Shown one piece after another: positions 5,536 through 27,339 of a stretch of DNA of 38,694 bases. The first letter of the stretch is position 1; each line of letters starts with the position of its first letter. The stretch spans positions 1 through 38,694 of the forward strand of contig DYEI01000494.1 in assembly GCA_020725765.1 (NCBI GenBank), in the 5' to 3' direction. Below the pieces are notes generated by a model. It worked only from the letters and a program-made list of their open reading frames with translations. It ran no database searches and had not been told where the DNA came from. Made by a program: the position numbers and the translations under genes. The stretch comes from Anaerolinea sp. GTDB taxonomy: Bacteria > Chloroflexota > Anaerolineae > SpSt-313.

Positions 5536-6003
5536 TCACGCGCCGCTGAGCCTGCCGTAGAGCCAGCCGCCGAACGCACCGCACACGGCCTGCACTGCCA
5601 GGTCAACCGGCCCACAGAGAAGCCAGGCTGCGACCCCGAAGAGCCCAGCGCCGAGGGTCACCAGGCCCAGGATCAGGCCAAACACCACGTAGTAGAGCGT
5701 CGGCAGCAGCCAGGCAACCAGCCCAGCCACAGCCCCTACCTGTGCCAGCTCCTCGACGCGGTAGCCCGAGCCTACGGCGAAGAATCCCGCCAGCGCTCCG
5801 TTGCCGACGTAGAGCAAGAGCTGAACCGGGTAGCAGAACACTACCGATGCACCACCAGTCAGAGAGTTCACAAGTGCAACGACCAGGAGGAACACCCACA
5901 GGATCACTGCCGAACGGATGCCCGGATGTAGCCGCCCCCAAAAGCTTGTGCTCGCGTAGGAAGAGCGTCGCCATCTTGTGTAGCCGCCGCGCCCTCTGCC
6001 CAT
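5536..6003 (-). CDS. Small four-helix membrane protein, last gene of the tubulin-like cluster
   Basis: A 155-residue membrane protein I do not recognise. A basic, cytosolic-looking N-terminus (about 30 residues, rich in R, G and Y) is followed by a first helix (AVILWVFLLVVALVNSL), then paired hydrophobic segments rich in Gly and Ala. The rest ends in GAFGGWLYGRLSG, a glycine-zipper-like end. ATG 6003 is chosen because AGGAG lies 5 nt upstream; the ATG at 6036 has no ribosome site and would overlap the previous gene. It starts 25 nt after the metallophosphoesterase stop and has the same strand, so it probably belongs to the same operon as a membrane component. Confidence 0.75.
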   Translation of the reverse strand: MGRGRGGYTRWRRSSYASTSFWGRLHPGIRSAVILWVFLLVVALVNSLTGGASVVFCYPVQLLLYVGNGALAGFFAVGSGYRVEELAQVGAVAGLVAWLLPTLYYVVFGLILGLVTLGAGLFGVAAWLLCGPVDLAVQAVCGAFGGWLYGRLSGA

Positions 6004-6028
6004 CTGCTCTCTCCTCTCATGAGCTGGC

Positions 6029-6970
6029 TCAGCCATCCGTGAGCCCGAAGTAGCGGAGCACCCTGAGCTGCGTCGGGGGATCGAGATCGCCTATGTCGCG
6101 ATAGGCTCTTGCCAGCTCTTGCCTCAGCATCTCCCGGTCCAACTCGATCCTTCGGACCTGAAGCGAGAAACCGCGTCGATCACGGATATCCAGCAGCGTG
6201 TATTCCAGACGGTAGCGTTCATCTCGTCCTGCGCGATGGTCGACACCAGCGGATCCGACGCAGGCCAGGTAATCGCCCTCCCCGATGTCCACCCAGTCCC
6301 CAGGGTCAGCATTGACCGGCCGGGGTTCAGACTCGCGCCGTCCTCTATGCCATACGAAGGCGCGATGGCTGTGTCCGCAGAGGATAAGGCAGCGCCTCGG
6401 CCGGCGCCGACCCAGCTGCCCGCGGGCGTAATCCATGTCCATCCGGGCATGATGGGCACCCTCTATCCCTTCGGCAAGATGGTAGCTCCACTCCATATAG
6501 TCCCGAAGCATGCCATGACAGAGCCAGACCGCTGCGCTGCGGTACCCGAGATCGTCACCGGAGAGGAGCCTGCGCGTGTACAGACGTCCGCCAGAGTCCT
6601 TGCGACGGTCCGTGCACTGGTCGCAGAGCCAATCATATTGCTCGGCTGCCCGCAACTGCCGTATCGTGACCGGTATCGTACTCCGGAACAGGGGGTTAAC
6701 GGCTCCATCCAGGGGGACGAGCCCACAGGCGTAGGCTTCGTGGTTGCCCGCCACAAGCTCGGGCTCGCGCATCACGAGACGTGGACACCAACCGCGGATG
6801 CGCTGTATCACCTCCGCCGATCTCGGGAGGGGATCTATGAGGTCCCCCAGGAGCCAGATGCGATCGAAGTGCTCGCGCTTATAGTCGCGGAGCACTCCCC
6901 GGAGGTCCTTTTCGATGGCATCAAGTGCAAGGTGATTGCCATGGATGTCAGAGATGACTGGTACCAGCAC
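6029..6970 (-). CDS. Calcineurin-like metallophosphoesterase
   Basis: A 313-residue protein with all five motifs of the binuclear-metal phosphoesterase superfamily near its N-terminus and middle: SDIHGNH (D-x-H), LLGDLIDPLP (GDxxD), AGNHEAY (GNHE), WLCHG and CGHSHRAF (GHxH). The order and spacing resemble the YfcE/MJ0936-like branch more than the PP1/PP2A branch. It could act on phosphoproteins, nucleotides or phosphodiesters. The C-terminal ~80 residues are a variable tail with beta-strand character. I chose GTG 6970 because it lies 16 nt after the upstream stop, has an AGGAG 10 nt away and begins directly at the first strand; an in-frame ATG at 7033 would overlap the upstream gene by 47 nt. 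Its place behind a kinase-like gene suggests a paired modification role, but this is inference. Confidence 0.85.
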   Translation of the reverse strand: MLVPVISDIHGNHLALDAIEKDLRGVLRDYKREHFDRIWLLGDLIDPLPRSAEVIQRIRGWCPRLVMREPELVAGNHEAYACGLVPLDGAVNPLFRSTIPVTIRQLRAAEQYDWLCDQCTDRRKDSGGRLYTRRLLSGDDLGYRSAAVWLCHGMLRDYMEWSYHLAEGIEGAHHARMDMDYARGQLGRRRPRRCLILCGHSHRAFVWHRGRRESEPRPVNADPGDWVDIGEGDYLACVGSAGVDHRAGRDERYRLEYTLLDIRDRRGFSLQVRRIELDREMLRQELARAYRDIGDLDPPTQLRVLRYFGLTDG

Positions 6971-6986
6971 GAATGCCCCACTCCTC

Positions 6987-9900
6987 TCAGGCGAGGTTTC
7001 TCCGCCGGCTGAGCCAGAGCCACAGGCGCTCACCCCAGGACCGAGGGAGTTCCATGTCGATGATCTCCAGGGCAGCCGGATCCCCCAAATCGAGCTTTTC
7101 CAGTTCCTCGCGGAGCGGTATCAGATATTCCCTCACGGCCGACGCCGGGCGGTCCGGTCTCCGCTCAAACTCGGAAAAGAGCCTCCACTTCCTCTCGATC
7201 TTTCCCAGCAGGTCACTCGCCGCTTGCGCATTCTTGTCGAACGTACTCTTGGCCCTGGCGCACCACGCCTGATCAATCCCTGCCTCGTCGCTGCCCGCCA
7301 GGTACAGCTCTTCCGCGATCTGACGGGCTTGGCTGCTCAGACACCTGGGCCGGTCTTCGATCTCGCCCAGGCTCTGCTCCAGAACTCTGAAAGCCTGCTC
7401 GATGGATTGGCGCATCTCCCTGGGCAGGTCCGGTTCGTCCTCTGCGGCTCCATCGTCTTGCGCCAGCAGCAGGGGGCGCTCGCCAACCAGCCCATATCGC
7501 CGTTGGAGCCGACAAAGAATCCTCTCGATGCGCTCTCTAAGCTCCTGAGGATAGGGAAAGCCGTAGAGGCGGCGCAGCTCCTCCAGGCTTCCCATGGTGG
7601 CGCCCAGCCTATCCTCCAGCGACCTTGTCACGTCGTCGGGCTCAGTCCTCTGTTCCACGCCGCGCCCTACTCGCTCCTTGCGTCGCCGCCACTCCTGCAG
7701 GTTGGGGATGATGTCGTTCTGCACATAGTCCCGCGCCGCCTGCAATCCCTCAACGCGCCTTCCCCTCTCAGTGACGAGCCTTCCCTCCCCTGACCACGAC
7801 CACTCGGCAACTCCCATCGCAAAGCGCCGCGCAAAGCTGTACCGGTCCTCCGGATCCAGCTCAACCATCTTCTGGGCTCCCGCGAGGAAAGCGGGGAGCT
7901 CGCCTTGCTCCCACAGCATCAGGACCTGGCTGTACCCCCCTCGAAGGTGCCCATAGTGCTGGACCTCTCCCTTCCGGGTGACCCGCACCTCTAGGTCTCG
8001 CCACTCTTCTGCAGTACTCGGCCAGGAGGGGAATAACTCCGCCTCATGCACAGACGACCCGAGGTCGCTATCGAGGCGCGCTTGCCACTCACGCCACTCG
8101 GTCAGGCGGATCGTGGAAGCAGGGTTTTGCTGGTTGAACGCGTCCTCAAGCGCTCTCATCTCCCTGATGAAGCGCCTGCAAGTCCTGAAGGCAGACTCTT
8201 CATCGCAATTCAGGTTTCCGCCCTGCCGCGCGCTGTCATAGGCCCTCTGAAGGTCGCAGAGCCTCCTGTGGCAGGCCTCAAGAAGGGCCAGCGCGTCTTG
8301 CAGCCACCTCAGGCCCCCTTGCACTTCCTGAGGAGCGCCCAGAGCCTCGGCGTCCGACAGCAGCCTACGGCACTGCCCTTCAGCCTCCTCGATTTTCACA
8401 CTCTGCTGGCAGGCCCGCTGGTAGGCCGTGAGTTCGGCGAGCCAGACGCCGACGAGCCCCTTTAGCCATCCGGCGATGCGCCTCTCAAGGTCCCCACACC
8501 TTTCCTCCAAACCTGCGATCCATCCATTCCCGAGAGGCCTCATTGCTTCGACAGCCCTGCGCAGGAGGCGAAGCAGGCCAACGGTGTCGATCGTTGGTGC
8601 TTTGGCCTCTTTCTCGATCCGCGCCGCGATTCTGTCGCACATGTCCCTCACATGGCGAGGAAAGGCGCGATGCGACGCCCAATCTAGGCCTCTTGGAAGG
8701 TTCTCCAGCAGGGCAAGGCAATCCCGCACGTGCCCGGTGAGCCAGTCATCGTCGCCCTGCCCCTGCCTCGGGCAATGCGCCTTGTAGGCATCGAGAAGCT
8801 CCTTCATCCTTTCGGTCGTTCGGAGCAGCTCCTCAACACCTGCCAGCGCTTGCTCAAGTCCGTTTCGGCCCTGCCCTGGCGGGTTGGCGGCGAGAGTCTC
8901 CCCAAGCCCATCGAGGTGCATGCGGGCGCGGTCGAACTGCTCGCAGAGAATGCAGAGGCGCACGAGCCGCTGCAGCAGTTCAGAGTCGTGGAGTGAATCG
9001 ACATCCTCACGAAGGAGTTGCTCGATCGCCGCTATGAGCCTCTCTCTCTCCTCGCGCCCGGCAGGTAGTGGAGTATGCAGGGCCGAGAACCTCCGAAGGC
9101 GTAGCTCGGCCGCGCGTACAAGGTTCCGGTCCTTGCTTTCGGTCGCGAGGAGCTGTCCGTCGTCACGGATGTACTCCAGCGCCTCCCCAACATCTTTGGC
9201 CGTCGCCTCATCTTGCGTGTTCAGCCATCTATCGAGGACGATCCGCAGGCGATTCTCCCAGGCGCCAAGCACAAAGAGGTACAACTCGCGCGCCTCGTCG
9301 AGATACCCCTGCTGCTCCTTCAGCACCTGCCGCAGCGACGCCACCGCGCGCTTGAATCGAGGGTTGTCCCCCCGGGGCTCGCCCCCGTTCGCCATCGCAA
9401 GCTCGCGGCGCACCTTCGCGACCACCTCATCGATGGGGCCCTGCTGCGCCTCGAGGCGGTCAAGCTCTGCAAGCGCTTCCTTCGCCCGCTCGCTGACCTC
9501 CGTTTCGACGCACCTCGCAGCAGCCGTGAGGTCACCTCGGGCCTGTGCCCAGGTTGCCCGCTTCTTAACAAGGCTGAGCCCGCGCTGCAACCATGCGCGT
9601 TGCCTCAGGGGCAAGACTCGCGCGTCCCTGGGATCTGCATTCTCAAGCGCCGCGAGGCAGTTGTCAAAGTCCCCCTCATCCTCCAGGTACCGGCTGGCGA
9701 GGCGAAGCTGCTCATCGAGGCCCTCGCGCCGGGCTATCCGGTTGTGCCATTGCTTCAGCGAGCAGTTGTGTTGACGCTCCAACTCTCTCAGCCGATCCTT
9801 GAGCTCCTCGAGATCGGCATCCTCGCGCGTCAGAGCCTGCTCGATCTCCTCGACAGCATTCACGAGGCGCTCTCGGGCTGCAACCGCCTGGCTCAGTTCA

Positions 9901-11159
9901 CCCAGTTTCTGCCTCACAGTCGCCAGTGCGTCGGAATCCACATCCCGCGACCATACCTGGCTCGCATACTGGTCATAGGTCCTCTTGACCTTCTCCCACG
10001 TTACGCGATCCGTGACCTCCTGTATTCGTGTGGCAAGCACGCCCAGGTATGGATCGACCTCGCGCGCGAGGTAGTCAGCCAGCTCGGTCGCCGCCCGCTG
10101 GAGCTCCCTTTCCAGGGCCTCGTACATCTGGCCGCCGGCCTCCAGCCACCTGTCTCTGGCTGCGCGGTACTCATCGTAACGCTCCAGTGGCGTGCGGGCT
10201 CTGGCTGCCCTCTCTTTTGCCTCCTGATGCTCTCTCCAAGCCCGCTCCTGCTCTTCGGCCCGCTGCATCTCCTGCTGCAACTGCCCAAGCAGGTCGCGGA
10301 CCTGGGAAACGGGCTCGGCACGCGTTGTTTCGCGCCATTCGCTATAGTGGCCCATTGCGGCGCTGAGGGCAGCCAGCCGCGTCGTCGGATCGCCGATGGT
10401 GCGGGCAAGTGCGATATCCCTTTCCACCCTGGCCGCGACGTGCCCTAGCCATTCCTCTGCCATGGCCCTGAGGGTTTCGCCCCTCGATAGTGGCCCGTGA
10501 GGTCCGTAGGGTCTGCGCTCGTTCAGTGGCCACTCCTCTTCGCCGAGATTCAGGGTCTCGATGTAGGTCCCCTTCATGTTATCCAGGAAGCGGCTGTACC
10601 GCTCAGACCCCTCCCTGGTGTTCCTCCACTCCACGATTGCGCCCCAGGCCGCGTTGAGCTCCGGATCCTCCTCGATGCGCCTGCGCAAGGCCTCGCCGCG
10701 GGCCTCTGCGTACAGCCTGTCCACGTCATCGGCGAGGGCACCGGTAACGTCCCCACTTTGCACAGCCTTGCGCAACTTCAAGATGCGCTCGCGCTTCGTG
10801 ACGAATGCCTCTTCATCATCGAGTTGCTGCTGCAGTCTTGCCCGCGCGGCCACAGCCTGTGCATGGTCCGGGTCGAGACGAAGGATGCGCTCCAGCAACC
10901 CGATGCGCTTCTTCAGGTTCTCCGGCCCACCGGGGGTCTCAGTGTACTGACTCCACAGCGCGTTCACGCGCTCGTTGATGTTGGCCTGCGCTCTCCGTAG
11001 CTGCTCATCGGCCTCTCTCGCGCCCGGACGGTCGCCCCGGGCCTCGGCTTCCGTGCGCTCCTCCTCCCACCTCCGCCTGACGTCCAACAGCTCCTGGTCT
11101 TTGTCGCTGAGGGCAGCGAATGGCTGCTGCAGACCGTCCCACTGTCCCGCACGGTCCAT
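6987..11159 (-). CDS. 1390-residue helical/coiled-coil protein, candidate scaffold
   Basis: A very large soluble protein that I cannot place in a family. It is almost entirely predicted helix, with very high Glu, Arg, Leu, Ala and Gln, long runs of heptad-like spacing and recurring Trp residues. Stretches near residues 85-120 (IGLLERILRLDPDHAQAVAARAR) look TPR-like, and the rest resembles stacked spectrin-like or TPR-like bundles. There is no signal peptide or membrane helix, but the last ~17 residues (SWGERLWLWLSRRRNLA) form a Trp-rich basic amphipathic end that could touch the membrane. ATG 11159 follows GGGAG. It lies 88 nt after the kinase-like gene and 16 nt before the phosphoesterase start. 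The coding call is safe from length and context; the function is unknown. Confidence 0.85.
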   Translation of the reverse strand: MDRAGQWDGLQQPFAALSDKDQELLDVRRRWEEERTEAEARGDRPGAREADEQLRRAQANINERVNALWSQYTETPGGPENLKKRIGLLERILRLDPDHAQAVAARARLQQQLDDEEAFVTKRERILKLRKAVQSGDVTGALADDVDRLYAEARGEALRRRIEEDPELNAAWGAIVEWRNTREGSERYSRFLDNMKGTYIETLNLGEEEWPLNERRPYGPHGPLSRGETLRAMAEEWLGHVAARVERDIALARTIGDPTTRLAALSAAMGHYSEWRETTRAEPVSQVRDLLGQLQQEMQRAEEQERAWREHQEAKERAARARTPLERYDEYRAARDRWLEAGGQMYEALERELQRAATELADYLAREVDPYLGVLATRIQEVTDRVTWEKVKRTYDQYASQVWSRDVDSDALATVRQKLGELSQAVAARERLVNAVEEIEQALTREDADLEELKDRLRELERQHNCSLKQWHNRIARREGLDEQLRLASRYLEDEGDFDNCLAALENADPRDARVLPLRQRAWLQRGLSLVKKRATWAQARGDLTAAARCVETEVSERAKEALAELDRLEAQQGPIDEVVAKVRRELAMANGGEPRGDNPRFKRAVASLRQVLKEQQGYLDEARELYLFVLGAWENRLRIVLDRWLNTQDEATAKDVGEALEYIRDDGQLLATESKDRNLVRAAELRLRRFSALHTPLPAGREERERLIAAIEQLLREDVDSLHDSELLQRLVRLCILCEQFDRARMHLDGLGETLAANPPGQGRNGLEQALAGVEELLRTTERMKELLDAYKAHCPRQGQGDDDWLTGHVRDCLALLENLPRGLDWASHRAFPRHVRDMCDRIAARIEKEAKAPTIDTVGLLRLLRRAVEAMRPLGNGWIAGLEERCGDLERRIAGWLKGLVGVWLAELTAYQRACQQSVKIEEAEGQCRRLLSDAEALGAPQEVQGGLRWLQDALALLEACHRRLCDLQRAYDSARQGGNLNCDEESAFRTCRRFIREMRALEDAFNQQNPASTIRLTEWREWQARLDSDLGSSVHEAELFPSWPSTAEEWRDLEVRVTRKGEVQHYGHLRGGYSQVLMLWEQGELPAFLAGAQKMVELDPEDRYSFARRFAMGVAEWSWSGEGRLVTERGRRVEGLQAARDYVQNDIIPNLQEWRRRKERVGRGVEQRTEPDDVTRSLEDRLGATMGSLEELRRLYGFPYPQELRERIERILCRLQRRYGLVGERPLLLAQDDGAAEDEPDLPREMRQSIEQAFRVLEQSLGEIEDRPRCLSSQARQIAEELYLAGSDEAGIDQAWCARAKSTFDKNAQAASDLLGKIERKWRLFSEFERRPDRPASAVREYLIPLREELEKLDLGDPAALEIIDMELPRSWGERLWLWLSRRRNLA

Positions 11160-11247
11160 CGCCCGTTCACACTCCCTTTCGTAGCGCCGGCAACGGCCAC
11201 ACTAGGTGTCAACCGCCCGTTCTTGACGAATCCACCCCGGAGGACGC

Positions 11248-14200
11248 TCACCGTGAGGGGGGCAGCCTGAAGTAGAGAACCTCTGCTCCTTCGTGGTACT
11301 CGTACCAGCTTGATCCTGAGAACTGACGCACTCTATCAAGCTCGAGGGCACTGCCCGCCAGCACACCAGCCAGGTTGCCGTCGGGGTAGTAGCTGGCAAC
11401 CCAGGCCGGGGATTGAAGCTCCCCGGCTACCGGAATCCTCGCACGCTCCAGGGGAGGCCAGTCAACCGGCTGGCACTCGAGGCCCGGCGCAAAGCTCTCT
11501 TCCTTGAGTCGGCGTTCGACAGGCTCTGCGCCGCTGCCATCAGGCTTGGGAACACGAAGGCGCAGCTGGCGGTAGTTCCATCCCGTCACAGGAGTGTAGC
11601 GCACTCGCCGGCTCAAGAGCTGCTCCTCCGCTATCTGCAGCAGACCTGCCACAGCTGCAACGCCCTGATCGGACAGACACACCACGCGCGCCGGATCAAG
11701 CGTTGCCACTGCCTGCGCAAGTGGAGTGGCCGTTGGCGCCACAGTCGGCGCGGGTGTGGGTGAGCTCGTCGGGGTTGTACTGGGTGTCGGCACGGGCGTG
11801 ACGGTCGGAGGCGGCGGCGATGGGATGGGAGCCGCGATGCTACCTGTCACCTCCCCAATGCCCCAGCCCTCAGGGGGGAGCCTACGAGGGTAAGAGGGTC
11901 CATCCCCCACAGTCCCTCCGGAATTGCCTGGCAACGGAGAGGCCGTTGCCTCAGCACGCGGCGCAGCGAACGGATCCGTGATCCAGGTCGGCAGAGCGCG
12001 GTAGACGCGCAGGCAGATGAGCATGCCGACCAAAACACCGGCCACAGCGCACGCCAGGCAGATGCTGACATGACGCAGGAACCGGCGCCACCGCTCTTCA
12101 CGGTCCTCTGCCACTATGCGCACACCAGGCCTCGACCCGCCCACCACCGGAAACCTCACCTGCGCCGGGGGCTCACTCGCAGGCCGCCCGGCTTCCGGCC
12201 GGGCAAGGCACTGCGCACGCGCCCGGGCAAGCCATTTCTCGGCCTCCTCCGGCATACCGGGTCGCAGCACGCGCAGTTCCCGAGCCAACTCAAGGCCACT
12301 GTCGAGCAGACCCGCAAGGTCCAGAGAACCGTGGAGCGAGAGGACCTCTTCGCACACCCGGCGGATGCGCTCAAGTCGATCTCGTTTCTGCCGGACCTCC
12401 CGGGCGCTCAACCGCTCATTCCTGGCCCGGGCGAGGAGCTGTTGCGCCTGCGCTCTCAGGTCGTCGGGAAGCGCCGGGACTGAGAGGACCTCCTCAAGAT
12501 CCTTGATGGCAGCCTCATAGTCGGGATTCTCCTGCGCGAGGTTCTCCTTGACGTGTCGCAGGGTGCCATGCAGTCCCTGCGCCCCCCTGGCGCGCTCCAG
12601 GCTTGCCTCAAGGCTCTCTTTGACCCTCTGCAGCAGAGGGTCGTTGCCCAGCTGTGAGTCTTCGAGAAGGAGCCTCAGGTAAGACTCGATAACTTCGGGC
12701 TTGCTCTCTACCGACAGTTCCCGAGACTTGGCCTCCCAGTACCTCTTCCACGCCTCGCGGCTCCGGGCAGCTTCTTTTTCCCAGGCGACCTTCTCGCCTT
12801 CCAGTCGCTCGCGGCGGCGTCTCTGCTCCTTGGCGATGAGATCGCAGCAATCGGGCGCCATCGCTTCGCACCGAACCCGCAACTCGATGAGCCGCTCATC
12901 GTCCAGCAATGGGATGGCTGCCTTGAGCCGCTCCTGTGCCTCCTGCTGCAGACGCCTGGCCAATTGGCTGACTGCGAGCTCCTGCGCACCCTTCGCCATC
13001 GCCAGCCACCGCTCTCCAGTGAGCCGGCCGCACGCCACCAACAGGGTGACCAAGTACTCAGGGTTCGTCTCGTCGGCGGCATCCAGCGCACTCTGCATGG
13101 TGCAGAGCAGCCGCGTCGCCGTGTACAGCCATTGCAGTTCGCGCAGGCGTGCGTCTTCGCCGGCGACGGAGACCAACCCCAGAGCGTCGGCCAGCCTTGG
13201 CGGGCTGGCTCTCAGGAGCGCATCTACGCGGGTCTCGATGGCCCTGGCCACGTCCGTCGGCGAGATCCCGCGATCCAGGGCCCTGACAAAGAGCCGCCTC
13301 GCAGTAGCGACGTCTGGCTGCCGAGTAGCCTGGATCAGCAAGTCGTGCGCCGTGGTGCGCTGCCGCCGAAGCCGCAACTCTTGCAGCAGACTGGCCGGAT
13401 CGCCGAAGCGTTGCCGGAGTGCGCGCGCGTACTGATCATCCAGGCCGGTCAGCGAGAGGGATTGCTCCTGCGCGTGACGGTAACGCTCCTCGGCCTCTGC
13501 CGGCTTCCCTTCGTCCAGCAGGCGTTGGCCGTCTTTCATCGCTTGAGCAAAGTCACACTCGCACAGCAGCGGGCGGAGGTTCCACTCGGGGTGCGCGAGC
13601 TGCAGCCTCTGGAGGACAGGCTCCGCTGAGCTATACTCACCCCGCCCGAAGTCGTCCATGGCCTGCAGCAGCTCGCGCCGCTCCGTATTGGTAGGAGGCG
13701 TTGGGCCGCAGCCCGCCAGCAAGCGCTCCCAGCGCTTGGCAGCCAGCAGGTGTCGGCCTCTCCGGACGAGCTCCTGCGCCTTTATCCGAGCATCATCCCG
13801 CCCAGCCTCAAAGCTCAACCGTACGCCGGCAATGCCCTCACGGTCCTCCAGCCACCCGATCGCCCGCCCCATCGCATCCTTAGAGGCATCTCTCATTCCC
13901 GCCAGAAGGCCGATGCTGTGCACTGCAGCGATTCTCTGCAGCCGGGTTACGTCATCGCCACTCGTGGGGGACCCAAGCCGCCGCACCAGGTCGGCGAAAG
14001 CGTTGGGGTCGGCGGTCGCGTCCCAGGTCTGCTCAAGCCCGGCGTACGCCAGCCTGAGCTCCTCGGCCGTTCGATAGCGATCCTCCTCCAGGGGAGATAG
14101 CGCCTTTGCAAGTACCTCCTGCAAACCGTAGCTCAGCGCCCTCCAGCCGTCGCCGCCTGCCTGCTCCAGTGTATCGCGGTCGAGTGTGCTGTAGCCGCCT

Positions 14201-14910: not shown

Positions 14911-17736
14911 TCACCGACCCTCCCGCTGCTGCCGTACTCGCTCCAGAGCACAGAGATAGAGCCAGTTGCGAAAGCTAGGCCAGAGCAGTCGGTACCGCCC
15001 GTCCCCGTCCCGCTCGGCCCGCTGCTGAACGTCACGAAGACACTTGAGTATGGCGTCCGGGATGTTCGCTTGCTGCCAGCTGCCATCGAGCGCCTGTCGC
15101 AGTTCCTGCAACATTCGCTGCACACTATCCTCACCCTGGAAGGGGCCGCTCCCGAAGCCCTCAGGCGCCCAACTGAACCGCTCCAGGGCATCAAGGAGGT
15201 GCTTTGCAAGCTCTACCTCTACCCCTTTGAACCGCAGGAGCCACCTGTCATTCTCCTCCGGCACCAGGCCGAGAAGGAACGCCTCGGCAAAGAGCTCAGC
15301 ACGATCGCCGGCCTCGAGCCACGTACGGAACTCGGAGTGCAGGATCGGCTCGTAGACCTGTGGGTTGGGTTGCCACGGTTTTCCCCAGCAGGTTGGCAAC
15401 ATCTGCTCCGGTTCTCGGTCGCTCCATACAAGGCTCTCACTCCTGGCCAGGGCAAGGAGATGAGGGAGCTTCTCCTCGATGCGCCGCATAGCCTGCTCAG
15501 GCCGGAAGAGGAGCTCACCAGGCGGGACATGGCCCGCATGCCTCCACACATCCAGGGACTCTACGGGGATGCACTCTACGTAGCTGAGCAACGCCACGGC
15601 GTACGGATCTTGCCAGGTGCGGGCTACAAGGTGATCGGGGTCAGAGATCCCCTGCTGCAGGTCCTGCACCTCCGCCTGCTCCGGTACCCACAGAAACCAG
15701 GATACAGCTACTTCACCAACACTCAGAGCCCGCACGACATCGGGGCGAAAGTCGCTCAGCGGGCTCGCCTCGTCCACCAGCGCCTTGGCCGCATCCTGCT
15801 TCTCCCAGCACCGGCTGATGTTCCAATCGGGCCAATCCAGCACCACACGAGAGTAGTATGCAGCATGTTCCTGCGCCAGCTTCCACAGGCGATGTGCATC
15901 CCCATGAGTAAATCGCTCGAGGCGGGCAAACGACGGCCCTGCGCCGCCATCCGCACGTGCACGGAGCGAGAAGCCACACAGGACCGGCGCACCCTCTCGC
16001 CAGGTCCAACGCCACCGTTTCACGATGGCTTCCGGGTCCACCTCCCCGAGCGCCCGGTCGATCGAGTCAGCGCCCGCACGCTGGAGCGCACGGTCGACCC
16101 CCGGCAGTCCTCGCTGCCAACTCCATATACCTTTGGCAGCCGTGCGCTCGTCCTTGGCCTTCTTGAGCAGTTGCTCGCGCACATTGTGCCATGCGTCAAT
16201 CGATGCCCTCGCCTGCTTCACAGCCCCTAGAGCCCGGCAGTACCAGTTCCGCAGAGGCTCAAGCTCCGCCTCCGGGAGTTGTGCGTAAGGTACAGGCCAC
16301 CCGGCTCTCCCCTCCGAGGGCCTGCGCCGCGGCGCCATCAGTATCCTCTGCGTCGCCTCCAGCCGCCGGCTCACCTGGTCAAGCAACGCTACCGCCCGTC
16401 CCAGGGCATTGCACGGGCTCTCACCTCCCTCAAAGAGCCTGTTGAGCGCATTCTCAAGGGCCACCTCAAAGACATTGCCACTGCGCTCCACCAACCGTCT
16501 GATGTCCCCCCGTTGAAACACGTACTGGTCGCCAGCGACTCGCCCGGCCTCCTCCTCGCTCAACGCGATGTCGAGGATGCGGTGCCATGCGTTCCCGCGC
16601 ACGTACCGATCCAGGTCGACACCCTGCGGAGGGCGGGCGTCCAGGATCCCGTCCGGACCAAAGAAGCCGACCAGCAGGCCAGCCCGGTACAGGTCCTGCG
16701 CCTCGTAGACCGGAAGCCGCCAATACTCGCAGCCAACAGCCGCGAGGAGGTAGCGGTGCTCGACTGCCTGGCGTTCCGTCCTGTTCTGCGCTGCACGGCC
16801 ACGCCTCTCCTGATAGGCCTCGAAAGGTCCGGCGAGCACGCAGGTGATAAAGTCGGCAGCCCTGCCCACGGCGCTGGTCCGCGGGTCGTTGCTGGGGAGT
16901 TCCACCTGGCCTCGGGGCTCGGGCAGAGCCGCAATCGCCGGGTGGATCACGTTGGCGACGGCAACCTGGCTATCTGTCACGGCATCCTTTTGCGGCCCGT
17001 AGAGGCTCCGCCACCGGCCCCCATGGAGGCCCAGGCGCGTCAGCTCCAGGAGCGTCGCTGCCTCACGCAACTCCTCCTGCACACCTGCCCCCTGACTGGT
17101 AGCCGTGCCGAGCAAGAGCAAGGTCTGATGTGCTGGTTTCACCACTCGGGCGATCAGCCGCGGCAGGTCCCCGGCCATGCCCGATGCCTCATCGCCGGCC
17201 GGGATGGCAACGTATGTGTCAGGCTCCTTAAGACCCTTTGTCCGTTCTTGCAGCCTGATGCGGAGGCGAGAGTTAGCCCCGTCCTCACCCCAGTCCCTGT
17301 GCAGGATGGCGCGCGCCCGAGCTCGCCCGGGGCGCTGCCAGTCGCCCTCGTCGAAGCCGATCCCCCTGCAGTGGTACTCGCCCTCCTCCGGGCGATCCAC
17401 CCTCAGCACGAGCTTTTCCGCCTCGCTCAAGCAGTACGCATCGGGGAGGTCACGAGGGTATTGCGCCGGGCGCCGGTCCGGGGCCTCGAAATCCAGCCAG
17501 AGCAGCCTGAGCTGCTCGGGCACCCTGCCAAAGCGTGACACGAGGTTGGCCTTGACCAGGGTCAGGAGCTGCAAGCCCGCTTGGCCCACCCCAACGATCA
17601 GCGCCGGGCGGCACTGTTCAGGCACGCCTCGACGTCGATGAGGATATCCCCCGTCATCAACTGCGAGTTGCCGTGGCAAGTCAACCGGGTCCGGCTCGCA
17701 CGCTGCCAGGTTCGCCCCGGGATCGAAGGGCTCCAT
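14911..17736 (-). CDS. Tubulin-like protein B with degenerate GTP signature
   Basis: A 941-residue protein that appears paralogous to the upstream tubulin-like protein. The nucleotide-fold start is present (ALIVGVGQAGLQLL, GVGQAG at 49-54, compare GIGGTG in the paralogue). A matching RARAILHRDWG segment corresponds to VGRAALYHDLDG there. Where the tubulin/FtsZ T4 signature GGTGAG is expected it has LLLLGTATSQGAG (210-218), so GTP binding may be altered. The large C-terminal part is mostly helical with no family I recognise. ATG 17736 is preferred (AGAGGTG 8 nt upstream); ATG 17760 with GGAGG close by is an alternative. It lies 51 nt before the kinase-like gene. Membership of the Tubulin_2 (PF13809)-like family is inferred from the paralogue. 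Confidence 0.75.
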   Translation of the reverse strand: MEPFDPGANLAACEPDPVDLPRQLAVDDGGYPHRRRGVPEQCRPALIVGVGQAGLQLLTLVKANLVSRFGRVPEQLRLLWLDFEAPDRRPAQYPRDLPDAYCLSEAEKLVLRVDRPEEGEYHCRGIGFDEGDWQRPGRARARAILHRDWGEDGANSRLRIRLQERTKGLKEPDTYVAIPAGDEASGMAGDLPRLIARVVKPAHQTLLLLGTATSQGAGVQEELREAATLLELTRLGLHGGRWRSLYGPQKDAVTDSQVAVANVIHPAIAALPEPRGQVELPSNDPRTSAVGRAADFITCVLAGPFEAYQERRGRAAQNRTERQAVEHRYLLAAVGCEYWRLPVYEAQDLYRAGLLVGFFGPDGILDARPPQGVDLDRYVRGNAWHRILDIALSEEEAGRVAGDQYVFQRGDIRRLVERSGNVFEVALENALNRLFEGGESPCNALGRAVALLDQVSRRLEATQRILMAPRRRPSEGRAGWPVPYAQLPEAELEPLRNWYCRALGAVKQARASIDAWHNVREQLLKKAKDERTAAKGIWSWQRGLPGVDRALQRAGADSIDRALGEVDPEAIVKRWRWTWREGAPVLCGFSLRARADGGAGPSFARLERFTHGDAHRLWKLAQEHAAYYSRVVLDWPDWNISRCWEKQDAAKALVDEASPLSDFRPDVVRALSVGEVAVSWFLWVPEQAEVQDLQQGISDPDHLVARTWQDPYAVALLSYVECIPVESLDVWRHAGHVPPGELLFRPEQAMRRIEEKLPHLLALARSESLVWSDREPEQMLPTCWGKPWQPNPQVYEPILHSEFRTWLEAGDRAELFAEAFLLGLVPEENDRWLLRFKGVEVELAKHLLDALERFSWAPEGFGSGPFQGEDSVQRMLQELRQALDGSWQQANIPDAILKCLRDVQQRAERDGDGRYRLLWPSFRNWLYLCALERVRQQREGR

Positions 17737-17887
17737 TGGCACATCACCTCTCCTCAACATCACGCCTCCCACCGGCCGCGGCTACCGATGCCAAGGGACA
17801 CAGCGCCGTCGCCCGCCGCAACCGAGGCGGCCATGTTGCCACTTCAGTGCCATTCGTCGCTCGTGCGATCGACGACCTGCAGGGCAG

Positions 17888-17925
17888 GCCGGGTGACCGG
17901 CGCCAGGCGCGACCGGTCACCCGGC
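17888..17925 (-). promoter_or_regulatory. Intercistronic 13-bp hairpin between the two tubulin-like genes
   Basis: A perfect 13-bp inverted repeat (arms 17888-17900 and 17913-17925, 12-nt loop) begins 11 nt after the stop of tubulin-like gene A in the direction of transcription. There is no U-tract after it, so it is unlikely to be a full intrinsic terminator. It could slow or partly end transcription, or protect the upstream mRNA after processing, giving more of protein A than of the downstream products. The rest of this gap shows no gene. Confidence 0.6.
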
Positions 17926-17936
17926 GACCGCGCTGA

Positions 17937-20900
17937 TCAGACGCGTGGGTCCCGGCCCCTCAGCAACTCCGCCAGTCTGGCTCTGTAGAGTTCCCGTTCT
18001 TTGCTCTCATCCCCCAGTCCCAGGTCGATGCGCCGATTGGCACAGTCCTTCGCCAGCAGCACTGCACTGATCCAGAACAGGCCTCTGCACACTTCGTCGC
18101 CACCATCCAGGATGCCCCGGACACGCCAGGAGGAGAACGGCTCTGCGCTCCCATTGACTAACGCATCGAGGACGCGCTCGGCCACTTCCTGAGAGTTCCG
18201 CAGGTAGTAGTCCAGGACGCGTTGCAGGGACTGATAGTCGACAGACTCTCCCCTTTCGAGCACCTGGTTCCCAGCCGCGTCCAGGCTTACGTGTATCCCC
18301 CTGTTCACAAAGTTGGTCAACGCCTGCACCCAGAGGTCGAAATCGTTCCCCGCGCTCCTTGCAGCAACGGGGAAGGGCGCCCCTGGGACCTGCAGGGCAG
18401 GGTGCGGCGCCCCCTCTGCCATCACCGGCACTCTGACGCGCAGTACCCTGCCTCCCGGCTCAAGGTTTTCCACTTTGACGAGGTCGAACAAGCAAGCCCA
18501 GAAGAACCAGGTAGCCTTTGCGGTATCCTCCAGACAAGCCACTACGCGGGGATGAAGCTCATCTACCGCCTGAGCACCAAGCACCTGACGGAGGTACAGC
18601 TCGAGCTCGACTGCGTGCTGCTCGGCTGGCAGGACGTGCATGAGCCGGGCAGCAAACTGCGGATTGTGCTGAACGGCCCATGTCTCGAAGACGTCCCGGT
18701 AGCTATCGGCCATTCCCTGGCGCGAGGCAACCTGTCTCGCCGTGAACCCCCGGAACACCTGCAGATAGGTCAAAGAGTATGGGTCGCTCGAGCCTGCAAG
18801 GCGAGTGTTCAGCGCACCAAACCTGGGCTCGCCCTGAAGCCGGTTCACGACCCCAGCGATGTATCGCTCCTCAGCGTTATTATCCACTGCAACACTGAGC
18901 CACTGCTGCATCGCCCGCACTCCACCCCGCACATGGAGCATCGGATCCCCTTTCTGCAAGAGCCGCTGGCCCAAGGCTGCCGGGTCGGCGAACTCTTGCT
19001 GAAGAACGGGCATGATCCGGTGCCTCTGTCTGAGATCACCCAGGGCGCCCTCAGAGAAGCGCGCCAGCGATTGCAGGTTCTCCTCGGCCTGGCGTCCGCC
19101 GCCCCCAACGGACAGATCCTGATCCGCTTCCCCGGGAACGAGCGATCGGAGCCGTAGCTGCACCATGAGCCCGGCCTCAATGTTCGCCGGAGCAGCTACG
19201 GTCCAGGTCACCTTCTCAAGGACCCGATTCAGCAACTGGTCGTCCGGCTGCTGAGCCGGCGGGATACGTGCGTGCTGTACCTCCGGCGCGCGGTTCGTAA
19301 TCAAGCCCACTCCCAACCGCTGGTACTCGTCCTCTACGCCCTCATAGAGCCCCCGAAGCCTCAAGGCCGGGTCACCTGTCAGGGCACGCTGCCATGCTTC
19401 CATGTTCAGGACGGTGTTGTGGACGAGCTCCTGCATCTGCTTTGCGGCCCTGTCCATGGCCCCCAGCAGCAGCTCCTCCTTCCGCACCTGCACCCACCAG
19501 TCAACAGCGTCAATGTACCTGTCCTGCGCCTTCATCGCCTTCGAAGGGATGCCCAGAGGTGCCCAGCCAAGTAGGGGCATCTTCCGATTCTTCGCTTTCT
19601 CATATTCCTCTCTGGCACGTTCACGCTCGGTTCGCGCCTCTTCCTCCAGCGGCCTCCCTGTCCCTCCGGAGCTAGGCCTGCGTCTCTCCTCGCGGATCCA
19701 GCCGAGGAACTCGATGTAGCTCTGGAGGTCGCGCTCGAGCTTCCGGAGGAAGTCGAGGGCATATCCGGGCTTGCCCTTCCGCGCCCGTACAAAGTCGGTC
19801 GCATCATCGCCCATCAGCAGCCTGTTGAGCTTGAGGCGCAAGGCCTGTGCAAACAGCCTGACCTGATCCTCGCGCACCGCTTCGAGCGCCTTTCCGTAGC
19901 GCCCTGGAACCGGCTGGCCCCCCGAAGTGACCCCGCCCCCGTAGACTTCATGGAGCTTTTCCTCGAGCGCGCGCACTTTCCTGTCGTACCACTCGTCAGG
20001 ATGGAACTCGCCCTTCCCTCGCGAACTGGGCCTGCTGAGCACAGGATCCTGCTCGCCAGTGTCTTGTTGGAACGTCTCTACATCACCCTGGCGGCCACGG
20101 TCCACAAAGCGCGTCTGCAGCTCCGTGAATCCTTCCTCCCCGCGCTCTCCCATGAACGCCTTGCGAACCTCGTCCTTCTGCTCTGCCAGCCAACTGTAGC
20201 ACACAGCGCCGATATCATGCACGAACCCGGTGACAGGGGCTTCCTCGTTGCCATAGCTCTCGCGATCGGAAGCCAAAAAGCGCTGCGCCTCCTGGCTGCC
20301 CGGTATGCCAACTCCGCCCCCCGGCGCCTCTTCATTCTGGTCCGGCGCCCACTCAAAGTATTGCATCGGGGTACCAGCGCCCAGGTCTACCGTTTGCGCC
20401 CTGGGTGCGCCGACAACCTCCAGCCATTTACGGCTGAGTTCCTTGCTGGAGCCTCTTACAGCCTGGAGGACCACTGAACGCTCCGTCCACACTCCAATGG
20501 CCGAGTACAACGGCTCCGCCTCGCCCGTCTGCAGAGCGCGGTCGTTGACGGCCAGCGTTGTAATCGACTCGGGATTCTGCCCTTCTTGCCGGACACGACC
20601 ATCGATGAGGAGGAAGATGAACTGCGCTGCGGCGGGGAAGGCGTGCTCCTCTGGCCTGCCCGCCGGGACCATGGGTGCGCCATTCTGCCAGCGCTTTCCA
20701 CCCACCAGATACAGGCCCTCGACGATCGGTTCAGAGAGCCGATAGGGTTGGCCATGCGGAAAGGAAAACTCGTACGGGAACACGGCTTGCCCCGTGAGGC
20801 GCATACGGCCGAACTCGCGCCACGTCGCATAGGCACGCGCAAGCACGTCCTTCGTCTGGGCATCCTGCTTCTCGCCCCAGGCCTCGGGCAGCACCAGGAG

Positions 20901-21464
20901 GCCCCACAGCCTCATGGGAAAACCAAACGTATGTAACAGAACCGCCATGTCCGTCACCATGCCCGCCCCGGTGCCACCGACAAGCGAGCTGACCAGTATG
21001 ACCTGCAGGGCCTCGCCCTGGGCCGCTGCCTCGTGGATATCGTTCAGAGCCTGGTAGAGCGCCCCTCGCACACGGGAGTTGGCGAGACCATCCAGGTCGT
21101 GATAGAGCGCCGCCCGCCCGACCGGACGGTGCCTGGCTGCCCCATCGGCGAACGGCTGATCACCAAAAGCTCTGATGTAGTCGTCCTTGGGGAACCACGG
21201 GCAGACCTCCTGGCGCAGGGCAGATACACGGCCGCCCGCGGCGACGTGCACGTATTCCTCTGCGTCCAGGCGGATCCGGCTGAAGTAGTCCATCTCATCG
21301 GCTGCCCCATGAGGTTCCTGCCCGAGCGCATGCAGGTCGAACCCCAGCAGCCTGACGCCTTCGGGAACCCTCCCGTTGGCGTTGATCAGAGCCCGCTTCA
21401 CGTCCGCGACGATCTCCTGCCCGGTGCCGCCGATGCCAACCACGAGCGTGGGCCGGATCTCCAT
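17937..21464 (-). CDS. Tubulin-like protein A (Tubulin_2/FtsZ-like superfamily)
   Basis: A 1175-residue protein with a tubulin/FtsZ-type GTPase core at its N-terminus. Residues 6-16 read TLVVGIGGTGQ, the first glycine loop. A VGRAALYHDLDG segment follows, and then the tubulin signature GGTGAGM at 163-169 within VSSLVGGTGAGMVTDMA, which binds GTP phosphates in FtsZ and tubulin. The remaining ~800 residues are large, mixed helical and unlike classical FtsZ (about 350-400 residues in total). This fits the long bacterial tubulin-like family, Tubulin_2 (PF13809), which tends to occur beside VWA proteins. ATG 21464 has a perfect GGAGG at 6 nt; the open frame runs on to 22046 but would overlap the VWA gene. 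It is 116 nt downstream of the VWA gene. Polymerisation is inferred, not shown. Confidence 0.88.
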   Translation of the reverse strand: MEIRPTLVVGIGGTGQEIVADVKRALINANGRVPEGVRLLGFDLHALGQEPHGAADEMDYFSRIRLDAEEYVHVAAGGRVSALRQEVCPWFPKDDYIRAFGDQPFADGAARHRPVGRAALYHDLDGLANSRVRGALYQALNDIHEAAAQGEALQVILVSSLVGGTGAGMVTDMAVLLHTFGFPMRLWGLLVLPEAWGEKQDAQTKDVLARAYATWREFGRMRLTGQAVFPYEFSFPHGQPYRLSEPIVEGLYLVGGKRWQNGAPMVPAGRPEEHAFPAAAQFIFLLIDGRVRQEGQNPESITTLAVNDRALQTGEAEPLYSAIGVWTERSVVLQAVRGSSKELSRKWLEVVGAPRAQTVDLGAGTPMQYFEWAPDQNEEAPGGGVGIPGSQEAQRFLASDRESYGNEEAPVTGFVHDIGAVCYSWLAEQKDEVRKAFMGERGEEGFTELQTRFVDRGRQGDVETFQQDTGEQDPVLSRPSSRGKGEFHPDEWYDRKVRALEEKLHEVYGGGVTSGGQPVPGRYGKALEAVREDQVRLFAQALRLKLNRLLMGDDATDFVRARKGKPGYALDFLRKLERDLQSYIEFLGWIREERRRPSSGGTGRPLEEEARTERERAREEYEKAKNRKMPLLGWAPLGIPSKAMKAQDRYIDAVDWWVQVRKEELLLGAMDRAAKQMQELVHNTVLNMEAWQRALTGDPALRLRGLYEGVEDEYQRLGVGLITNRAPEVQHARIPPAQQPDDQLLNRVLEKVTWTVAAPANIEAGLMVQLRLRSLVPGEADQDLSVGGGGRQAEENLQSLARFSEGALGDLRQRHRIMPVLQQEFADPAALGQRLLQKGDPMLHVRGGVRAMQQWLSVAVDNNAEERYIAGVVNRLQGEPRFGALNTRLAGSSDPYSLTYLQVFRGFTARQVASRQGMADSYRDVFETWAVQHNPQFAARLMHVLPAEQHAVELELYLRQVLGAQAVDELHPRVVACLEDTAKATWFFWACLFDLVKVENLEPGGRVLRVRVPVMAEGAPHPALQVPGAPFPVAARSAGNDFDLWVQALTNFVNRGIHVSLDAAGNQVLERGESVDYQSLQRVLDYYLRNSQEVAERVLDALVNGSAEPFSSWRVRGILDGGDEVCRGLFWISAVLLAKDCANRRIDLGLGDESKERELYRARLAELLRGRDPRV

Positions 21465-21580
21465 CTTGTTCCTCCTATGCTCACGTAAACCGGTCGCTGC
21501 ACTCTGCCGCGACCCGAGCCTTGCAGGGCACAGCTCAGACGCCCCGCTGCGACGGCTAGTCCGGGGAGCAGCATGCCTGC

Positions 21581-24500
21581 CTAGCGTCGGCGCCCGCTCG
21601 GAGGCACATCGGTCCGCCCACCAGGCGCGGGCGGCTGATACGTTATGCGCACTTTTCGGCCAGCCACCAACATTTCCCGCGACCTGCCCCCGAGGTCCTT
21701 CTCCTCGAACGCTTTTCGGAAGCGAACCTTCAGCCTGATATGTCCCTCCCCCAGGCTGGTGATCTTGAGCTCGCGCATGCCATACTGTGCCGGCCAGCCG
21801 TGTAGCCTGACCGTATGCCACCTTCTTCTGTAGTTGATGGGAACCTCTAGACGCCGCGCCGGATCGGCCGCGTCCGTCAGCGATAGAGTGCCACCCATTC
21901 GGCCCGTCCTGCTGATCAGCTCGCGGCCCAGGGCGTACAGCAGGCCTGCCCCCAGCGCTAGCGGCGCGATCCAGCCCAAAGCGATCGTGGCTGCCGTGTG
22001 CACGGGGTTGACGCGCAGCTCGACCTCCACCGAACTGCCGGTGCACGTCGCTCCAACCACATGGGGCCTGCTCAGATGCTGGGAGGCACCCTCCTTCCAG
22101 TAGACCCTCAGCATGTAACGCCCGCTAGGATGAGGGGCAGGCATGGTGCCTACCACAACGGAGGGGTCCTCGGGGTCGACCGCAAGCTCGACCTTGTGAC
22201 CATATTCCTCCTTTCCCGGCCCTATCAGGCTGACCGCATAGCTATCCTGTAGACGAGCGCCGGGCCGCAGGAAACCCGCACCGGCACTGGATGCCGGCGT
22301 GCCGGCTCGGGGCATTGTCTCAACCCTGAAGCGGAACGTGACGGGGCGCGCCGGCGGTCCTGCGCGTAGCCAGGCGTTCCGAAGCGATGGAAACGAGCTG
22401 TGTTCGAGCGTCGCCCCGTTCTGCGGCGACTCAATGCGCAGGCAGAGCGGTATGGTCTCGGCCGCCTCGACCGTCCACTCACAAGGGGCGAAGGCATCGA
22501 GCAGAGCTCCCTCGGGACTGCTGACCGTGCCTGCGACATGGATCCGCCACAGACCGGGCTGATCGAACACAAAGGCCTGCTCGAATCTGCCTGCTCGAAC
22601 CATACGGATTCCGCTCAGCGGCCTCCTATCGCCGTTTGGTGCAACGGCAAAGGACTGACCAAAGTCGATCGGGAAGGACGGGTCGGGGACGAATGGCCGC
22701 CCCGAGACGAGCAGGTCAAAGCCGATCGCCGACTGAGTGTCCGCATCGACGCCCTCTGTACTGCGAGGAGCCTGGTTAGCGCATTCGAGAGTTGAGAACA
22801 GTGAAGCAACATCCTGCTCCGCTCGGCACAGCACCTCCTCTCTGCCCTCCCTCCTCACGGAGGCCTCGGCAATCAATCTGTCCGGCGCAACAGCGCCGCT
22901 AGCCACAAATAGCGTGTGCTCGTACCGGCCATCCTCGGTTCGGGTCATCTCGGCCGGCTGGCGGCCCTCGGCGGTAGTGAGGGTCACCCTCACACCCTGC
23001 TCGGGTGGGATGCTTACCTGATTGCCGTTGGGCCCGACGAGTTCGAAGCGGAAGGTGACTCGGCGGAACGGTTGGCATTCCCCATCCTTGCAAGCCGGAT
23101 CAAGCAGCCGGCCCGATGGTCGTCCCACTGGGATCGTGTAGGTCGTTGGCGAGATCAGCACGAACTCTTCGCCACTGCACCCTCGCGCCGAGGCTGCAAG
23201 GCGGAGGGTGTATGGGCCCTCCTCCTGGAAGGAGAGCTTCTCTTGTGAGATGTACACCCCATTGCCCGCAGGGGAGAAGTGCAGCTCTGTCGGCGACGAT
23301 GCGCTCGGCGACAGCATCGACGCCTCCAGCGCCAATGGGAATCCCGGCGACTCCGCCAGGGGATTGCCCTGGTAGTCGTTCAGCGCGACGCGTACAAAGG
23401 TCTCGGACAGCAGGGTCTGCGGGCCTGCTGGCGAGAGGACCGCAGGCTTGCCGAAGACAGGGTCGAAGCGCACCTGCACCCTCGTCCCGGGCCTGGTGGC
23501 ATAGTGCCACTGGCCCGGAGCCGGTCGCCGCACCTCGAGGCGCCTGATCCCGGTGCCGAGCTCTTTGTACAAGATGACATCAGGGTCATTCGGATGCACC
23601 CGGGAGCCATCCGATCTGGTGAAGACGACATCATCCGGCTCACGGAGCGGAGTGAGGCCAAATACCGAGAAGGCAGCTTCCGCTACGTACGGAGGCACGC
23701 AAAAATCTTCCGGTATCACGAGTCCGGGATCGTAGATCGTGCCCAGGATCTCGCTAAAGACCGGGGCGATCTGCTGAGCAGAGGAGACAAGCCGCCAGTG
23801 ATCTGAGCCCACAATGCGCTGCCAGGCACCGCTGGATGCTGGCGCGTGCCTGCCCAGAAACACGACCCACAGATGGTAACCATCGGTCGCCCGAGGCGCC
23901 GACGCACGGGGGAACCTGGCCGCCACCTCGCCGGCCAGCACTCCCATATAGGCGGGCATGAACTGCGGGTTGAGCTTTGTCCTCTCGTCGTCCAGCCAGT
24001 ACGTTACCGGACCAGCGTCGGTCGCAACCCTGGCGACCATCGGGTCGCCGTCAGTGAGGACGATGATAGCCCTGGTCCGAGGTCGCCTATCTTCCAGGGG
24101 GGCCCCAAATGCAGCAGCTGCTTTGGAGAAAGCCGCCCGGAAGTCTGTGTCGCCCAGGTTTTCCCTTCTCAGAGCCTCGGAAATGCTCCTCTCCACAGCC
24201 TCGCGTTGATCAAGATCGGCTGTCCTCAGGGAGGTCAGTGGCACATCGGTTCTGGTATTGGCCGAAGAGCCGAAGGTGACCACACCCAGGCGGTGCTCGC
24301 GCCCGGGCCACTCGAACAGGTTGTCATAGGTCAACTGGCTGACCAGGTACCGCACCGCCTCGAAGCGCAACCCCTCCGGATCGCTGCCCCCTCCTTCTCT
24401 GACAATATCGAGCTTTTCGTTGTACTCATGGAACATGCTGCCCGAGTTGTCCACGAGCACCATGATGTCTATTCCGCCGAGGGGGTCCTCGGTGGTAACC

Positions 24501-24610
24501 GAGGTCACGACCGGCTCCTGGGCTCGAGCACGAGTGACGATGACGCTCGGAGCCACCAGCGCAAGCAGGATGGCCACACCGGAGACGATGAAGCGCCAAC
24601 GTGAGAGCAT
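21581..24610 (-). CDS. Exported VWA-domain protein with C-terminal membrane anchor and cytosolic tail
   Basis: A 1009-residue type I membrane protein. A signal peptide (residues 1-30, cleavage after ARA) precedes a von Willebrand A domain with a complete MIDAS metal site: D54-N-S-G-S58, the Thr in NLGDTDF and the Asp in VLTDGD. Residues ~300-860 look like several beta-rich, Ig-like modules, with paired Cys residues that could form disulphides outside the cell. A membrane helix lies at ~873-898 (ALGWIAPLALGAGLLYAL), followed by a ~110-residue basic tail on the cytosolic side that is itself beta-rich. The start is preceded by AAGGTGA. It is the first gene of the minus-strand cluster; VWA proteins beside tubulin-like proteins are a known association. 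Ligand and partner are unknown. Confidence 0.88.
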   Translation of the reverse strand: MLSRWRFIVSGVAILLALVAPSVIVTRARAQEPVVTSVTTEDPLGGIDIMVLVDNSGSMFHEYNEKLDIVREGGGSDPEGLRFEAVRYLVSQLTYDNLFEWPGREHRLGVVTFGSSANTRTDVPLTSLRTADLDQREAVERSISEALRRENLGDTDFRAAFSKAAAAFGAPLEDRRPRTRAIIVLTDGDPMVARVATDAGPVTYWLDDERTKLNPQFMPAYMGVLAGEVAARFPRASAPRATDGYHLWVVFLGRHAPASSGAWQRIVGSDHWRLVSSAQQIAPVFSEILGTIYDPGLVIPEDFCVPPYVAEAAFSVFGLTPLREPDDVVFTRSDGSRVHPNDPDVILYKELGTGIRRLEVRRPAPGQWHYATRPGTRVQVRFDPVFGKPAVLSPAGPQTLLSETFVRVALNDYQGNPLAESPGFPLALEASMLSPSASSPTELHFSPAGNGVYISQEKLSFQEEGPYTLRLAASARGCSGEEFVLISPTTYTIPVGRPSGRLLDPACKDGECQPFRRVTFRFELVGPNGNQVSIPPEQGVRVTLTTAEGRQPAEMTRTEDGRYEHTLFVASGAVAPDRLIAEASVRREGREEVLCRAEQDVASLFSTLECANQAPRSTEGVDADTQSAIGFDLLVSGRPFVPDPSFPIDFGQSFAVAPNGDRRPLSGIRMVRAGRFEQAFVFDQPGLWRIHVAGTVSSPEGALLDAFAPCEWTVEAAETIPLCLRIESPQNGATLEHSSFPSLRNAWLRAGPPARPVTFRFRVETMPRAGTPASSAGAGFLRPGARLQDSYAVSLIGPGKEEYGHKVELAVDPEDPSVVVGTMPAPHPSGRYMLRVYWKEGASQHLSRPHVVGATCTGSSVEVELRVNPVHTAATIALGWIAPLALGAGLLYALGRELISRTGRMGGTLSLTDAADPARRLEVPINYRRRWHTVRLHGWPAQYGMRELKITSLGEGHIRLKVRFRKAFEEKDLGGRSREMLVAGRKVRITYQPPAPGGRTDVPPSGRRR

Positions 24611-27313: not shown

Positions 27314-27339
27314 TCCATCACACGGCTTGGGGAGGGGCG

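Follow-up and report, generated by a model that had tools for sequence, protein, structure and literature searches.

We analysed a contig of Anaerolinea sp. (C479, DYEI01000494.1 in NCBI GenBank assembly GCA_020725765.1; 38,694 bp, 66% GC), which in its whole length is called the window below and belongs to a genome of 4.6 Mb in 570 contigs. On its minus strand (24610-5536) lies a cluster of seven genes, V, TubA, TubB, K, C, M and S. These genes almost certainly form one functional unit, and we interpret the unit, with a probability of about 0.5, as an accessory, envelope-anchored tubulin-polymer machine. The single system that an earlier reading of this DNA (the sequence-only reading) had suggested is borne out as a co-inherited unit by a gene set kept, in three different arrangements, in Chloroflexota and two further lineages, and the envelope-to-cytosol link that it had proposed is strengthened by a layout that spans the membrane and by relatives in which an ectodomain, a transmembrane (TM) helix and a tubulin are fused. 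The seven genes are as follows.

21581..24610, minus strand: VWA protein (V), 1009 aa, Pfam VWA_2
17937..21464, minus strand: TubA, 1175 aa, PF13809 (Tubulin_2/FtsZl1)
14911..17760, minus strand: TubB, 949 aa, TubA paralogue, unfused in the window
11248..14859, minus strand: kinase-like protein (K), 1203 aa, Pkinase E 9e-5
6987..11159, minus strand: giant, probably all-helical protein (C), 1390 aa, assigned by position
6029..6970, minus strand: metallophosphoesterase (M), 313 aa, Pfam Metallophos E 2.5e-6
5536..6036 (or 6003), minus strand: small multi-TM protein (S), 155-166 aa, assigned by position and type

All seven same-strand open reading frames (ORFs) listed by the sequence-only reading are present, with two start positions corrected, and each carries the codon-position GC signature of the 66% GC genome. 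For TubA, the mechanical ORF start at 22046, inside the V gene, was rejected; the likely start is the ATG at 21464, which follows AGGAGG. S starts inside M or just past its end. The gaps between the genes are, in order, 116, 176, 51, 88 and 16 bp, followed by the overlap of M and S, and no terminator-like site was found within any of them. The cluster is more than a chance arrangement because its gene order recurs in distant genomes.

Conservation of the gene set

Genes at the loci of relatives were called by script and compared by iterated profiles. A genome-wide scan with the window TubA alone found nothing; with a five-sequence alignment as query it succeeded, and the TubA searches gave 80 named loci, the publicly named relatives being mostly Chloroflexota, many of them labelled Anaerolineae. 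Some TubA relative at E <= 1e-15 is present in 55 of the 298 sampled genomes of the class. The window order, V-TubA-TubB-K-giant-M-S, is identical in GWater (JACRLB010000016) and SulCav (DYJM01000026). It is also found from TubA onward in C630D37 (JAGHYK010000023, whose contig begins within TubA), in AS27 (JAAZOQ010000195, whose contig begins near the V end) with one gene inserted, and as far as M in CHL1 (JAHDWK010000031, TubB fused) and SSC4 (CP059258, a frameshifted assembly). The second order, giant-M-V-TubA-TubB(fused)-K, is found in G009, G014, Bin103, DTUCFX11, G311 and G136, some of which have extra genes or split giants, as well as in SM1_1_0 and bin10092 up to the contig limits and, without V, in G002. 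The third order is TubA-K-TM protein-giant-M-TubB in Sulfidibacter corallicola (NZ_CP071793) and V-TubA-K-TM protein-giant-M-TubB(fused) in Aminicenantes (WVZO01000550); S. corallicola offers most of the gene set in a complete genome. Some parts are missing at the loci of UBA6055, LaPl0303, UBA1466, N1Bin185, MAG66 and Chloroheliaceae, where contigs end in some cases. Between GWater and SulCav, TubA is 72% identical and V, TubB, K, the giant, M and S are 42, 36, 42, 40, 47 and 41% identical, respectively; TubA is therefore the slow core of the system.

When the neighbourhood was checked in this way, V, TubA, TubB, K and M stayed together, and so did the giant across the other loci, which upholds this part of the sequence-only reading; homology of the window C and S could not be established by sequence. 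The window C has no Pfam or other family match, single-sequence searches with it gave no homologue in 60 relatives or 18 system-carrying genomes, and its HH comparison with the giant family of other loci reached a probability of 0.4-1.6, no better than the reversed sequence. The giants of the other loci belong to one TPR/coiled-coil family by profile, the GWater group matching the G009 group at a probability of 99.7; CHL1 reached 96, and the split giants of G002, G311 and G136 reached 62-97 in parts. The mismatch of the window C is no disproof of membership, because true family pairs also fail in pairwise comparison (CHL1 against GWater, E = 1); moreover, the window TubA itself is only ~25-28% identical to other copies, so that loss of the giant-protein signal is to be expected. 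The window C has the same position and size class as this family, and an S-type protein with weak sequence relation stands at the same place in GWater, SulCav, C630D37 and AS27. Thus, conservation of the window C and S is one of position and type; it is not demonstrable in their sequences. In one relative (L148, 14999-19901, into L149), the TPR-like part of the giant is preceded by an ordinary protein kinase domain (E 3e-48) and, at the N-terminus, by a NERD domain.

These results bear on whether V, TubA, TubB and K alone make up the unit, with C, M and S of the window as unrelated neighbours, which we consider very improbable. The lack of a detectable homologue of the window C would fit such a four-gene unit, as would UBA6055, where V-TubA-TubB occurs with no giant or M nearby, and the wide spread of the M family, members of which were found in 247 of the 298 class genomes. 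Because of this spread, the M profile is not specific to the system and cannot be used as an independent seed. However, the giant and M adjoin each other, near the tubulin genes, in all three gene orders, the other giants form the single profile family described above, and the window genome has a second M-family copy elsewhere.

Several side observations were made at these loci. UBA6055 (L156 and L157) has three VWA-type and four tubulin-type genes within 30 kb, a local expansion. A metagenome-assembled genome named Acidithiobacillus ferrivorans (L044 / L150) has the cluster with a TubA ~70% identical to Chloroflexota copies, which probably reflects a mis-binned contig or recent transfer. In several Anaerolineae (L025, L026, L027, L029, L030), a shorter TubA type of ~825-945 aa follows a C-terminal-TM protein of ~1050-1090 aa and precedes a protein with two TM stretches; these loci may represent a sister system.

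The tubulin pair and the membrane-spanning proteins

FtsZl1 proteins with vWA and kinase neighbours were described in 2010, and a role in membrane remodelling was proposed for them (Makarova and Koonin, PMC2875224); the pairing of VWA and tubulin-like proteins, put forward as known by the sequence-only reading, is indeed found in that paper. A 2023 study of the FtsZ/tubulin family left FtsZl1-type proteins out as divergent (PMC9871819). TubA matches Tubulin_2 (PF13809) with 80.1 bits against a curated cut-off of 27, its GTP loops are intact (T1, GIGGTG; T4, GGTGAGM) and fit the FtsZl1 loop GGTGxG, and it carries a long helical insert plus a C-terminal part. Its AlphaFold2 (AF2) model (pLDDT 78, pTM 0.71) has a Rossmann-like N-terminus, a middle helix (642-696) and a mixed and helical end, which fits the FtsZl1 layout, and matches CetZ, FtsZ and TubZ. 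With foldseek, the model was aligned over ~330-345 columns with FtsZ/CetZ chains of ~300-330 residues (best E 1.9e-5; TM-score by target ~0.4-0.5), a likeness that is suggestive, not proof, because the root-mean-square deviation (rmsd) is large. Judging from this model, the filament elements that the 2010 authors could not all identify in FtsZl1 (PMC2875224) appear to be present in TubA. A profile search of the PDB with TubA gave chance matches only.

TubB has no Pfam match and a degenerate T4 loop, and fails both the PF13809 score and the GTP-loop tests for FtsZl1. It is joined to the tubulin family by profiles seeded with TubA or TubB, it can be aligned over its full length, and the best 50 PDB matches of its model (pLDDT 65, pTM 0.67) are all tubulin, FtsZ or TubZ, with a weak best E of 5e-3. 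On sequence grounds, TubB is thus best described as a diverged paralogue of TubA and a non-standard FtsZl1 member. The T4 motif GGT(G/C)(A/S)G is kept in all TubA copies and lost in the TubB copies, so that TubB is a predicted pseudo-GTPase. A tree built from 25 TubA and 19 TubB sequences divides the two types at one branch (support 82), with one change compared with 14.6 in shuffles; TubB is an ancient paralogue of TubA. The TubA phylogeny tracks gene order, the window TubA grouping with loci of the same order (support 99); the fine structure of the tree is unsure because many rows have long branches. Like FtsZ, TubZ, CetZ and BtubA/BtubB, the window pair has the tubulin-superfamily fold by model comparison, and the pairing itself recalls BtubA/BtubB and alpha/beta tubulin. 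In contrast to these proteins, the pair is far larger (949-1175 aa), has long inserts, is linked to membrane proteins and lacks FtsZ_C or Tubulin_C matches, and the T4 loop of TubB is ruined. The active/degenerate pair offers a testable parallel to the known paired tubulins.

On the membrane side, V (VWA_2, E 5.8e-9) consists of a signal peptide, a VWA domain with an intact metal ion-dependent adhesion site (MIDAS; DNSGS), a single TM near residue 876 and a 115-aa cytosolic tail. This layout is common to 18 full-length homologues, with tails of 97-152 residues, and the MIDAS is intact in nearly every copy. In many relatives, the two sides of the membrane are joined, and TubB is the predicted cytosolic end of a membrane-spanning, receptor-like protein. 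For example, G009 and G014 each encode a single protein of ~2,100 residues in which CAP, VWA and PD40 propeller domains are followed by a TM (at ~1058 or 1094) and this in turn by Tubulin_2 (from ~1122 or 1153; Pfam E 7.5e-27 and 1.2e-31). Similar proteins are encoded in Bin103, DTUCFX11, G002, G311, SM1_1_0, G136 and UBA6055, and fusions with shorter ectodomains in CHL1, Chloroheliaceae and Aminicenantes. The ectodomain is predicted to lie outside and the tubulin inside, because there is an N-terminal signal and a TM right before the tubulin; a simple scan flagged further hydrophobic stretches within the ectodomain, so that this topology is a prediction. A referee of the 2010 paper objected that tubulin in the cytosol would have no contact with proteins outside, and that elements needed for filaments were seemingly missing (PMC2875224). 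The fusions address the first objection by putting the outside and cytosolic sides into one polypeptide.

Integrins have a MIDAS-type VWA domain outside, a TM helix and a cytosolic part facing a cytoskeletal protein. The V/tubulin cluster resembles them as an analogy of layout, in relatives within one polypeptide; unlike integrins, it is tubulin-like rather than actin-linked, and beyond the VWA domain there is no sequence relation.

K consists of an N-terminal divergent kinase domain, whose Pkinase match lies under the Pfam curated cut-off, a helical region, a TM at 931, a Pro/Thr-rich linker and a small outside domain. The N-lobe Lys and the catalytic Asp-x-Lys are kept in the window K, the catalytic-loop Asn is replaced and DFG reads DWN. 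The family comprises 20 proteins with kinase motifs family-wide, the best pairwise partner of the window K being that of CHL1 (E 4.8e-20); a TM is found in K at several loci, and at one locus K has an outside domain of the Golvesin type. The kinase domain also gave weak, partial PADLOC matches to the defence kinases PD-T4-6 and mad6. Together with the patchy, accessory distribution and the giant fused to NERD and kinase domains in one relative, these matches would suit a biological conflict (anti-phage or anti-competitor) system in which kinase, scaffold and tubulins act as sensor and effector. We regard this as improbable, since the matches are to generic kinase domains, nucleases, toxins and other effectors are missing from the window set, V, TubA, TubB and M matched none of the PADLOC models, and no defence neighbours were seen within the window. 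Classing the cluster as a defence system was considered and rejected; besides the partial matches of K, PADLOC gave only weak coiled-coil matches of C.

A proposed polymer machine at the envelope

We propose that TubA would bind GTP and polymerise, and that TubB, as a pseudo-GTPase partner, would co-assemble with it. V would expose its metal-dependent VWA domain outside while its cytosolic tail meets the tubulins, and K, the giant scaffold and M would set the timing of the polymer and its attachments, M probably by cleaving a nucleotide or phosphodiester. Rather than dividing the cell, the machine would be likely to organise or brace the envelope at places of contact between the surface and a ligand, a neighbour or a matrix. 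FtsZ_C (PF12327) gave no match in TubA or TubB and a single one genome-wide, on a different contig (C128); an ordinary FtsZ is encoded elsewhere, so that division is already served. A more specific version, which we put forward only tentatively, is an outside-in transmembrane cytoskeleton in which TubA-TubB polymers would be nucleated or capped once VWA, CAP or propeller domains bind a ligand, with TubB at or tied to the inner end of the receptor and K and M as regulators.

Several findings weigh against the polymer machine, besides the large rmsd noted above. Filament formation is reported for no FtsZl1 protein in the literature found, and roughly half of the loci have a K without a TM. The system is rare, with full-length TubA (a match over at least 900 profile positions) in 10 of the 298 genomes, so that it serves no basic cell function. 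In addition, M resembles nucleotide hydrolases more than protein phosphatases. Its metal-ligand motifs are intact in an alignment of 17 sequences, and the PPP protein-phosphatase signature GDxVDRG is absent (GDLIDPL in the window, GDxVGYG in the family consensus). The M profile matches the whole length of 3rqz (E 7e-52) and 3qfm, and also Ap4A hydrolases and YfcE; compared with 3rqz, 3qfm and YfcE, M is ~50 residues larger and is encoded beside tubulins. The window M is only 17-25% identical to M of other cluster loci. A kinase/phosphatase switch made up of the kinase-like/phosphoesterase pair of the sequence-only reading is thus unsupported, given these nearest solved relatives and the divergent kinase-like domain of the window, and the idea of K and M as a pair acting on a protein by phosphorylation and dephosphorylation is weakened.

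The same features of M, with the receptor-like architecture of V, fused TubB and K and the failure in 2010 to find all filament elements, speak for a transmembrane signalling or transport complex whose tubulin-fold proteins serve as nucleotide-controlled switches or adaptors without ever forming filaments, as the referee of the 2010 paper had suggested (PMC2875224). We hold this to be unlikely, and yet the most serious of the competing explanations, since the TubA model aligns with nearly full-length FtsZ/CetZ and since the characterised members of the tubulin superfamily, as far as the 2010 authors knew, form filaments (PMC2875224).

With the FtsZl1/vWA operons of 2010, the window cluster shares a vWA gene immediately ahead of TubA (so placed in the window and most loci), a TubA that is FtsZ-like at its N-terminus and helical in its long middle and at its C-terminus, a kinase-like gene (frequent there) and many membrane proteins around. 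It differs in that its conserved parts also include a degenerate paralogue of the tubulin, a helical giant, a phosphoesterase and a small membrane-spanning protein, and in that relatives fuse the ectodomain to the tubulin. A distinct P-loop GTPase and OmpA-type proteins, frequent though not universal in the 2010 operons, gave no Pfam match in the seven proteins or the scanned flanks. Thus, the core (FtsZl1 tubulin, vWA and kinase) has been known since 2010, and the window cluster adds parts to it. In full-text literature searches, with subscription papers outside their scope, we found no functional study of FtsZl1 after 2010. Nor did we find an earlier description of the active TubA/degenerate TubB pair, the TubB fusions, the membership of the giant and M, or the near-full-length FtsZ/CetZ match, with the limit that unnamed neighbour families of the 2010 survey could include some of the cluster genes.

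Leader and flanking regions of the window

Ahead of V, one further feature was recorded.

25572..25600, minus strand: promoter-like site TTTACA-17-TATAAT, 11 of 12 consensus bases, a consensus match only

This sigma-70-like match lies ~1 kb ahead of V and is followed ~430 nt on by an intrinsic-terminator-like site, also before V; the element (minus strand, 25600-25119) may correspond to a small RNA or to a leader through which the cluster is attenuated. An Rfam scan of the leader gave no match. Relatives of the flanking window genes were looked for in the other cluster loci and none were found. Among these flanking genes, an 881-aa protein (29298-31943, minus strand) combines a TM helix at its N-terminus with a long, helical part in the cytosol that is coiled-coil-like, resembling EzrA in layout only; Pfam gave no match for it, and the other cluster loci contain no relative. 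A gene for RNase P RNA of the bacterial class A type (Rfam RF00010, E 1e-98) occupies 191-578 on the minus strand, antisense to the mechanical start of a radical SAM ORF (110-2266), whose true start is therefore probably further in. On the plus strand, three tandem short ORFs at 26873-27836 are mutually similar (phmmer E 1e-8 to 1e-16), which points to a small local gene duplication, and genes for HMG-CoA reductase, an HMG-CoA synthase-like protein and thiolase stand in series at 32999-36582 as a mevalonate pathway cluster.

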